This document shows, piece after piece, positions 14,119 to 62,870 of a DNA stretch of 64,000 nt. The number at the start of each line of letters is the position of its first letter. Position 1 is the first letter of the stretch. This DNA is from Lacticaseibacillus mingshuiensis. Its GTDB lineage: Bacteria; Bacillota; Bacilli; Lactobacillales; Lactobacillaceae. Position numbers and translations under genes: made by a program. The notes below the pieces were generated by a model. It was given only the letters and a program-made list of their open reading frames with translations. It had not been told where the DNA came from and searched no databases. The stretch lies in NCBI RefSeq assembly GCF_016861785.1, contig NZ_BOLS01000013.1, positions 1-64,000 of the forward strand, given 5' to 3'.

Positions 14119-14871
14119 CTAAAACGGAAGCGGCGGTACTTCACCATCATCACCCGCCCCGGCCGTTTCTGGATCCGGCGCGGTCGTTACCATGTCCTGG
14201 AACGCCGCTGACAACGCAACGAAATTCTCAAGGGTCAGTGACCCAAGTTTCACGGTCCCGACGTTCGCACGTTGGACAACCGCCGTATATACCTCGTTGG
14301 CATCACGATGTTGTTCCTTGGAGAACGCCTTGATCCGGTCTAGCAACTTCTGCTTGTCGTCATTGCCCGCCATACGTTCCGCAGGCGCGGCTTGTTGCGG
14401 GGGCCGATGTTCTTCCCGGCGTGGCGTTGAACGTGGCTGTGTGGTACGTGTGGGGCGCTGTTGGGTCTCCTGCGTGCGATTGGAGGCCGCGTTCCCGTCG
14501 TCGTCCGCGTCTCCAACCAGTCCGAACGCTGTCTGCAGCGTGTAGCGGCGCGCGTACGTTTCGGCGGATCCTAACTCCTGCGCCGTGCCCTTACCGGCCG
14601 GCATCGTCAGCGGTGAAAACTCGATGTACTCGCCTGAGTCGTGGAAGATGATCGTTTGGACCGTCACGCCTTGCTCGCTGTTGCATACGTCCTGGGTCCA
14701 TGACAGCCCCGTGCCTTTTGTCCCGGCGTCGACCGACTTGATGACCGCCGACAGGTCCGAGTACTTTGACTTGGTGAACGGGTTCGTCGCGTTTTTGTCT
14801 GGTTGCTTCACCTGCTCGCGGAATTTGCGCATATCCTTGATCAATTCGATTGTGCTTTCTGACCGTTTCAT
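14119..14871 (-). CDS. ERF-family single-strand annealing recombinase
   Basis: 250 residues starting MKRSESTIELIKDMRKFREQ. The ERF core is clear: NPFTKSKYSDLSAVIKSVDA, then GTKGTGLSWTQDV, and GSAETYARRYTLQTAFGLVG, ending with the acidic DADDDGN. A disordered Gln/Pro/Arg linker (about 135-175) leads to a helical C-terminal part. It anneals complementary strands during phage recombination, working with SSB and RusA. The start follows AAGGAGG by eight bases. Its end at 14119 is 15 bp from the initiator start. Confidence 0.88.
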   Translation of the reverse strand: MKRSESTIELIKDMRKFREQVKQPDKNATNPFTKSKYSDLSAVIKSVDAGTKGTGLSWTQDVCNSEQGVTVQTIIFHDSGEYIEFSPLTMPAGKGTAQELGSAETYARRYTLQTAFGLVGDADDDGNAASNRTQETQQRPTRTTQPRSTPRREEHRPPQQAAPAERMAGNDDKQKLLDRIKAFSKEQHRDANEVYTAVVQRANVGTVKLGSLTLENFVALSAAFQDMVTTAPDPETAGAGDDGEVPPLPF

Positions 14872-29671: not shown

Positions 29672-30052
29672 GGGTGCGGAAGCTCGCGGGATGGTGGAAC
29701 AGCTAGGTCGGCTCAGGTGCTTGGTGGCGAACTTGGCCACCGAGTGCATGAGACGCCTAGATGTTTCCGCCATGCGAGCTGGAGCCTGACTAGAATAAGG
29801 GTGCGGAAGCTCGCGGGATGGTGGAACAGCTAGGTCGGCTCAGGTGCTTGGTGGCGAACTTGGCCACCGAGTGCATGAGACGCCTAGATGTTTCCGCCAT
29901 GCGAGCTGGAGCCTGACTAGAATAAGGGTGCGGAAGCTCGCGGGATGGTGGAACAGCTAGGTCGGCTCAGGTGCTTGGTGGCGAACTTGGCCACCGAGTG
30001 CATGAGACGCCTAGATGTTTCCACCATGCGAGCTGGAGCCTGACTAGAATAA
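29672..30052 (+). repeat. Three 127-bp tandem copies of the GGTGCG...GGAGCC hairpin element
   Basis: Units start at 29672, 29799 and 29926. Copies 1 and 2 are identical; copy 3 differs only at 30023 (A for G). Each folds on itself: AGCTCGC/GCGAGCT, ATGGTGGAA/TTCCGCCAT, CTAGG/CCTAG, CTCA/TGAG and TTGGTGGC/GCCACCGA around a GAACTTG loop. The copy-3 change turns a T-G pair into T-A, so pairing is kept. Flanks are GGGTGCGG and GGAGCC, with a TGACTAGAATAA spacer. No reading frame is supported. The array starts two bases after the ltaS stop. Confidence 0.9.
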
Positions 30053-30200
30053 GGGTGCGGAGCGGGGCGCACAGGGGTGGACAGCTAGTTCCGGCTTGGG
30101 CGTTTGATGGCGCTCTTTGCCATCGGGCGACCGGGACGACTAGATGCCCACCCCTGCCCCGCGGAGCCTGACTAGGGTGCGGAGGCCCGCCGATGCGACC
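30053..30200 (+). repeat. Diverged hairpin element copy plus a truncated copy
   Basis: 30053-30168 has the same architecture with different outer stems: GCGGGGC/GCCCCGC, AGGGGTGG/CCACCCCT, CTAGT/ACTAG, GATGGC/GCCATC. The conserved CAGCTAG and ACGACTAGATG core and the GGTGCG and GGAGCC ends are kept. A second copy begins at 30175 (GGGTGCGGAGGCCCGCC) and is cut off after about 25 bases. The interval 29670-30362 is otherwise gene-free. Confidence 0.85.
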
Positions 30201-34471: not shown

Positions 34472-34501
34472 GGGGCAAAATCCGCATGCGCGTTTTGCCC
34501 C
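34472..34501 (-). terminator. Hairpin between the SOS operon and a membrane gene
   Basis: GGGGCAAAA/TTTTGCCCC, 12-base loop. On the minus strand it is followed by CTTTTCG, a weak terminator. Confidence 0.45.
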
Positions 34502-34509
34502 GATCCTGC

Positions 34510-38192: not shown

Positions 38193-38238
38193 AAAAAACG
38201 GGCGGCGCTGTCATCAATGACAATGCCGCCCGCTTTTT
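38193..38238. terminator. Bidirectional terminator
   Basis: CGGGCGGC/GCCGCCCG with inner TGTCAT/ATGACA. A runs before and T runs after, serving the RpiR gene (+) and the ACT gene (-). Confidence 0.85.
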
Positions 38239-38735: not shown

Positions 38736-38808
38736 GGTGCGGGGCGGGGCGTTTAGGACTGGGTGGCTTGTTCGGCACAGGTGTTGGGCAGCGCACTCAG
38801 TCCCCTGC
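38736..38808 (+). repeat. Short copy of the hairpin element family
   Basis: Starts GGGTGCGGGGCGGGGCGTTTA, the same 5' end as other copies, but the internal arm is short: GGACTGGGTG pairs with CACTCAGTCC (one G-T). The GGAGCC end is missing. It fills the gap between the manganese-binding protein gene stop and the ACT gene start. Coordinates are within a base or two. Confidence 0.65.
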
Positions 38809-54580: not shown

Positions 54581-54694
54581 AGGTGCGAAGCGCGGCGTTT
54601 AGGTCTGAGCGGCTAGGCTGGCTTGGGTGCTTGAGGCGTACTTGGCCTCGAGTACACAAGCCACCTGGACGCCTCGGACCTGCCGCGCGGAGCC
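54581..54694 (+). repeat. Hairpin element copy
   Basis: Starts AGGTGCGAAG and ends GGAGCC. Stems: GCGCGGC/GCCGCGC, AGGTCTGAG/CTCGGACCT, CTAGG/CCTGG, GGCTTG/CAAGCC and TTGAGGC/GCCTCGA. Same order of stems and internal loops as at 29.7 and 62.7 kb with different sequences, so the fold is conserved. It lies upstream of yebC on the + strand. Confidence 0.85.
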
Positions 54695-54702
54695 CAATTA
54701 CA

Positions 54703-54815
54703 AGGTGCGAAGCCGAGCGCTTAGGTCTGAGCGGCTGGGCTGGCTTGGGTGCTCGAGGCGTACTTGCCAGAGGTACCCACGCTGATCTCAAGGTGCAAAC
54801 CCGAGCGTTCACATC
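54703..54815 (+). repeat. Truncated or rearranged hairpin element copies
   Basis: 54703-54785 repeats the 5' half of the preceding element (AGGTGCGAAGCCGAGCGC...GGCTTGGGTGCTCGAGGCG) and then diverges; AGGTGCAAACCCGAGCG at 54791 begins another fragment. With the previous copy they fill the 327-bp gap between yebC and the vanZ-like gene. Confidence 0.65.
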
Positions 54816-62710: not shown

Positions 62711-62827
62711 AGGGTGCGCAGCCGAGCGTTTAGGGGTGGGCAGCTAGTGCGGCCTGGGCGCTTGATGGCGTATTTTGCCATCGGGCGACCAGGACGACTA
62801 GATGGCCCACCCCTGCTCGGCGGAGCC
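62711..62827 (+). repeat. Hairpin element copy, best-formed example
   Basis: GGGTGCG, then GCCGAG/CTCGGC, GGGGTGGGC/GCCCACCCC, CTAGT/ACTAG, CCTGG/CCAGG, TGATGGC/GCCATCG around a GTATTTT loop, then GGAGCC. The unpaired CAG and ATG segments flanking the CTAG stem are the same as at 29.7 and 30.05 kb. It lies between cdaA (-) and adhE (+). Confidence 0.88.
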
Positions 62828-62837
62828 CAACTGTGAA

Positions 62838-62870
62838 GGGTGCGCAGACCCGCGGGATGATGGGGCAGGT
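62838..62870 (+). repeat. Truncated 5' half of a hairpin element
   Basis: GGGTGCGCAGACCCGCGGG..., the usual beginning without the second half. The rest of 62639-63137 has no gene; it includes the adhE promoter and a GTGAAAA/TTTTCAC inverted repeat (near 63035-63075). Confidence 0.6.

Follow-up and report, generated by a model that had tools for sequence, protein, structure and literature searches.

Why would a family of long hairpins keep its shape while the letters of its stems are replaced? The question is raised by a 64-kb stretch of Lacticaseibacillus DNA (the window), in which the initial annotation, made from the sequence only, had picked out hairpins of about 115 bp at 29672, 30053, 54581 and 62711. 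Shape that is retained while letters are swapped wholesale points to an undescribed repeat family in which shape, and not sequence, is what gets copied or preserved.

Hairpin arrays in the window

The window contains six complete hairpins, each 113-115 nt long, all on the + strand and grouped in three arrays with four, one and one full units, respectively; their starts lie at 29673, 29800, 29927, 30054, 54582 and 62713. All four hairpins of the initial annotation are real, with starts off by 0-2 bases, but its list lacked the near-identical copies at 29800 and 29927, which are 99-100% repeats of the unit at 29673. Overlooked as well was the array structure. Units recur with a period of 122-127 bp (1-4 units per array), and each array is closed by a linker, whose tail differs by locus, and then by an early-stopping copy that again begins GGTGCG (30176, 54704 and 62839). 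The features of the window are as follows.

29673-29786, + strand: full hairpin unit 1, array 1 (outer stem AGCTCGC/GCGAGCT)
29787-29799, + strand: linker TGACTAGAATAAG with array-specific tail, after unit 1
29800-29913, + strand: full hairpin unit 2, array 1, exactly equal to unit 1
29914-29926, + strand: linker TGACTAGAATAAG after unit 2, array 1
29927-30040, + strand: full hairpin unit 3, array 1, one substitution away from unit 1
30041-30053, + strand: linker TGACTAGAATAAG after unit 3, array 1
30054-30168, + strand: full hairpin unit 4, array 1, with different stems (GCGGGGC/GCCCCGC)
30169-30175, + strand: linker TGACTAG preceding the truncated copy, array 1
30176-30190, + strand: 3′-truncated copy closing array 1 (GGTGCGGAGGCCCGC)
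38736-38778, + strand: possible solitary degenerate hairpin copy, of low confidence, with the left part alone kept
54582-54694, + strand: full hairpin, array 2 (GCGCGGC/GCCGCGC)
54695-54703, + strand: linker CAATTACAA, array 2; its ACAA tail is similar to AACAA immediately 5′ of the first copy
54704-54766, + strand: 3′-truncated copy closing array 2, ~63 nt
62713-62827, + strand: full hairpin, array 3 (GCCGAGC/GCTCGGC)
62828-62838, + strand: linker CAACTGTGAAG, array 3; its GAAG tail is similar to GAAAG immediately 5′ of the first copy
62839-62868, + strand: 3′-truncated copy closing array 3, ~30 nt

Each of the six copies folds as a single long, interrupted hairpin (-68 to -79 kcal/mol), much as had been described, and for the four distinct copies 0 of 200 shuffles fold as well (z -4.2 to -8.0). 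The complement of each outer stem (AGCTCGC, GCGGGGC, GCGCGGC and GCCGAGC) is present on the right arm. The foot of the hairpin is GGTGCGNAG, where N is variable; other species have AGCGCG, AGGGCG or GCTGCG. Directly 3′ of the window hairpins there is no poly-T tract, and CAACT or CGACT with the linker tail is found in its place, in agreement with the earlier view that these elements are not a terminator set.

Covariation and stem modules

The stems had been said to change wholesale together with their partners, and this holds across 148 distinct copies from the window's genome: standard pairs make up 97.3% of the pair cells, and 35 of the 42 pairs show double changes. A covariation check, as proposed at the time, gave a score of 0.523 on these copies, compared with 0.198 for shuffles and 0.05-0.09 for partners slid by 1-3 columns; within-genome relatedness inflates covariation counts, and the slid controls retain that relatedness. 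An independent repetition in L. kribbianus (G006), whose hairpins are spelled in other letters, gave 0.500 versus 0.05-0.08 for slid controls. Covariation is independently supported by further species in which this fold is likewise built from different letters.

Chance-corrected mutual information between the paired arms of the five stems amounts to 0.68, 0.59, 0.76, 0.71 and 0.64, and between unpaired modules to 0.08-0.48, neighbours a few bases apart included. Because arm-arm mutual information exceeds that between unpaired modules, each stem is inherited as a two-armed module. The outer stems pair fully in 121 of the 148 copies and are short of one pair in a further 25, so that mismatched chimeras are a minority, and the loop (GNNCTTT type) and joints are conserved across species. 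At one locus (L105:12389-12623 versus L274) the left arms of two array units are exchanged between species, and L. yichunensis carries mismatched chimeric hairpins.

Distribution in the genome, the genus and plasmids

A covariance model built from 17 copies was searched against the window's own genome (2.76 Mb), where it has at least 150 matches; the family proposed in the initial annotation is real and its extent far larger than noted there. Stretches around the model matches, a sample of 585 kb, contain 183 full copies, which fall into 103 arrays: 50 of one unit, 34 of two, 10 of three and 9 of four. In a model search of 60 genomes, matches occur in 24 of 30 Lacticaseibacillus genomes and in none from other genera, and other Lacticaseibacillus species have the same nested fold with different letters. 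G000, G021, G006, G014 and G027 are rich in copies, while a strict search has no match in G009, G012 and G022. Among 301 Lactobacillaceae genomes, the matches outside the genus are few, weak and low in copy number. The best reading is that the hairpin family is specific to Lacticaseibacillus and some relatives.

The nearest named relative, L. yichunensis 33-1 (G021), shares 91-95% DNA identity with the window's genome across long blocks. Copies of a casei-type model number at least 150 in G027, 149 in G005 and 30 in G020. The window array itself has no BLAST match among plasmids and phages. Copies of the casei-type variant, in contrast, occur on plasmids of L. rhamnosus, L. paracasei and Pediococcus, with no annotated feature beneath the match.

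The hairpins had not been recognised as a named RNA, and an Rfam search agrees: it found only tmRNA in the window, with no hit close to the gathering score in the repeats, and no Rfam model matches the repeats in relatives. We found no earlier description of the family in the open-access literature, one elsewhere being possible; in an earlier survey of stem-loop families, the sole lactobacillus mentioned is Lactobacillus johnsonii (PMC2267715).

Polarity and linkers of the arrays

The unit has a fixed start, GGTGCG, and the arrays are polar. A 3′-truncated copy closes 83 of the 101 testable arrays, by a criterion with a chance rate of 11.5%, and a 5′-truncated copy opens 3 of 101; the corresponding counts in L. 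yichunensis are 64 and 4 of 78. Arrays in L. kribbianus are built in the same way and reach eight units. Truncated copies span 11 to 97 nt (median ~29), and the majority stop short of the apex, as would follow from stalling at the entry to a stem.

Linkers mostly open with CAACT or CGACT and close with an array-specific tail. When this tail is compared with the sequence before the first unit, the mean suffix match is 2.8 nt versus 1.8 nt in shuffled comparisons (500 shuffles, maximum 2.1), and four or more bases match the upstream flank in 33% versus 9% of cases, the match being partial. Crude gene calls place 33 arrays antisense and 19 sense to both flanking genes, 18 in divergent and 17 in convergent intergenic regions; with all four gene orientations used, a strict 3′UTR or leader location is ruled out. 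Replication-strand bias is not significant in two complete or near-complete chromosomes (G027, 56 versus 37, p = 0.06; G005, 23 versus 20), nor is the alternation of hairpin classes A and B within arrays (48 of 81 neighbours are of different class, with 40.5 expected; p = 0.066).

Just 5′ of many arrays lies a T-tract resembling an intrinsic terminator (TTTTTTGATTCAG, TTTTTTGTG), for example at L109, L125 and L147 and, in the casei group, at L294, L308 and L309. T5 occurs within 22 nt in 16 of 103 arrays compared with 3% of all positions, a control not limited to gene ends. In other species, units in opposed orientation are also found around a spacer of ~35-50 bp (L063 1501-1781, L064 1205-1616).

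Turnover of hairpins at fixed sites

At 48 of the 51 sites whose flanks both align with L. yichunensis, at least one full unit is present there too, a shared occupancy that is somewhat overestimated because matches in both genomes guided the choice of regions. The two species agree in copy number at only 21 of the 51. The window's four-unit array has two units in L. yichunensis, one of them orthologous to unit 4, and at L103/L281 and L108/L268 the species differ by a whole unit 5′ of a copy common to both. An orthologous partner (identity of at least 88%) exists for 44 of 90 units, a better match lies at some other locus for 53 of 90, and approximately half of the hairpins are of another type in L. 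yichunensis. At L113:1501 and L111:1502 the flanks align, the insertion point is identical and the hairpin type is different.

In near-identical plasmids hairpins have been lost with end scars or the unit number has changed; these pairs were considered as empty sites and rejected, since such differences are not clean insertions. A strictly empty site matched by a clean duplication was not found, and 'unoccupied' sites usually keep remnants or truncated copies or have flanks that do not align. Turnover has no end preference of the kind seen in CRISPR-like leader-end addition.

A second repeat

A second repeat of ~175 bp, whose terminal repeats are GGAAGTGGGACAAA and TTTTGTCCCAGTTCC, consists of a related long hairpin, a linker of ~30 nt and a terminator-like hairpin. 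The window's genome has 33 matches to it and that of L. yichunensis 26; the best are 96-100% alike. Copies lie at L156:10819-10992 and 14685-14858, with empty counterparts at window positions 34472-34503 and 38197-38230. The second repeat has probably been mobile recently, because L. yichunensis has it at two sites where the window is without a copy.

DNA or RNA

In the outer and second stems of three species, G.T, which pairs in + strand RNA, is not significantly commoner than A.C, and the outer stems show nothing of the wobble tolerance that RNA would be expected to have. G.T outnumbers A.C in the apical stem by 328 to 5 here, by 105 to 3 in L. kribbianus and by 54 to 2 in the casei group, and conserved G.T (G.U) pairs occur in the apical and fourth stems on the + strand only. 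Because G.T dominates there, the apical part seems to function in single-stranded form and with a defined polarity, be it as RNA or as DNA; the conserved apical G.U pairs show that the fold of one strand also matters. In L. yichunensis orthologues the pair is kept in 30 of 44 one-sided changes, and such changes in the outer stems comprise 17 G.T versus 8 A.C, an excess that is not decisive.

A very high-copy structured RNA family, acting in cis or in trans and with its pairing kept by selection on the transcript, would fit the loop and joints conserved across species, the strand-specific G.U pairs and the pairs retained in orthologues. We nevertheless hold it to be unlikely: the arrays occur in each of the four possible orientations with respect to neighbouring genes, there is no Rfam relative, the outer stems lack a G.U excess, the hairpin type is replaced at fixed sites and no terminator follows the hairpins. 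Polarity, whole-hairpin exchange at fixed sites and the rarity of outer-stem G.U favour a DNA copying process. The alternatives raised in the initial annotation, that a fold is under selection or that copying runs through a hairpin, are supported as a pair and are not fully separable.

A proposed model of directional copying and its alternatives

We give roughly even chances to the explanation that these are genus-wide dispersed DNA hairpin repeats, nearest in kind to REP/BIME elements and MITEs, multiplied by directional copying and hairpin exchange. A polymerase would, we infer, leave the target at the ...AG end and then copy a folded single-stranded copy of another unit, starting at its GGTGCG end. 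It could rejoin the target a few bases upstream, thereby repeating the linker tail, or alternatively fall off in the stem and so leave a 3′-truncated copy. Propagation or tolerance may be limited to well-folding units, such that pairing would persist while stem modules shuffle, and hairpins may also be exchanged at existing sites. The machinery could be that of host replication and repair or an as yet unnamed enzyme. A more far-reaching proposal, which we advance only tentatively, is that the heritable unit is the fold itself, with arms exchanged together, hairpins swapped into fixed sites and units laid directionally by an undescribed single-strand, structure-reading copying system.

Old tandem repeats reshaped by homologous recombination and slippage, with pairing kept only since mismatched hairpins are toxic or lost, would account for the identical neighbouring units at 29673, 29800 and 29927, for chimeric units such as L144 copy 2 and L105/L274, and for copy number shifting by whole units. 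The fixed start and the truncated end are left unexplained, as are hairpin types common to distant loci and swapped at single-copy sites, and we consider this account quite unlikely. Movement of REP-type elements by an IS200/IS605-like Y1 transposase (RAYT) is improbable. High copy number, intergenic imperfect hairpins, a GNAG motif overlapping the stem foot and Y1 genes in the window's genome would agree with it, but the copy-rich G006 (L. kribbianus), G011, G014, G001 and G027 are without a Y1_Tnp (PF01797) match, and there is no fixed GTAG tag. Target-primed reverse transcription of an antisense RNA, as in a bacterial SINE, with one precise end, one truncated end and template jumping, could produce the precise start, the variable truncated end and tandem units differing in type, but it is highly improbable given that the window's genome (G000), G021, G006, G011, G001 and G027, all rich in copies, have no RVT_1 (PF00078).

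The family bears on the way in which REP-like hairpins multiply, since its copies keep a mechanistic footprint made up of a fixed start, a truncated end, linker tails that are repeated, modules of paired arms and exchange at fixed sites. The hosts are tractable food and probiotic bacteria, and the first suspects, Y1 transposase and reverse transcriptase, are missing from several copy-rich genomes. The hairpins are abundant, with two genomes having at least 150 each, and unannotated in the plasmid records checked; hairpin-prone placement could confound assembly, strain typing and terminator prediction.

Comparison with known systems

Integron attC sites are single-strand hairpins in arrays that vary in sequence and are conserved in structure, and the Lacticaseibacillus hairpins are likewise variable in sequence, conserved in structure and arrayed; unlike attC sites, they have no partner box for GCCCAAC by eye and their arrays contain no gene cassettes. 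The arrays resemble CRISPR arrays in that their variable units are separated by a short repeat, the linker plus GGTGCGNAG, that is specific to the locus; here, however, the units are homologous hairpins and no end-polarised turnover is seen.

MITE-like bacterial repeats such as RUP, ERIC and Correia/NEMIS are ~100-130 bp long, palindromic from end to end and dispersed, and the Lacticaseibacillus hairpins resemble them in all three respects. They differ in lacking sequence-conserved terminal inverted repeats, as the outer stems vary between copies, and in that sites are kept between species while their content changes. With regard to target-site duplication, some arrays have linker tails that resemble the flank upstream of them, but no clean empty site was found.

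REP, BIME and REPIN elements, which are mobilised by RAYT (TnpA-REP), are imperfect intergenic hairpins, present in hundreds, often clustered and with conserved bulges (PMC8266576, PMC3116915, PMC3733652), and the Lacticaseibacillus hairpins are also found in hundreds, intergenic, imperfect, often clustered and with bulges that are conserved. REP/RAYT systems are defined by a palindrome of 20-50 nt with a fixed GTAG or CGTC tetranucleotide at its foot (PMC8266576, PMC3733652). On both length and tag the present family falls outside this definition, its units being 113-115 nt long and their foot GGTGCGNAG having a variable N, in line with its not having been recognised earlier as a named REP family; nor is a RAYT required in several copy-rich genomes. 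Its stems vary wholesale, and where REP elements form inverted pairs, the Lacticaseibacillus hairpins form direct head-to-tail arrays that end in a truncated 3′ copy.
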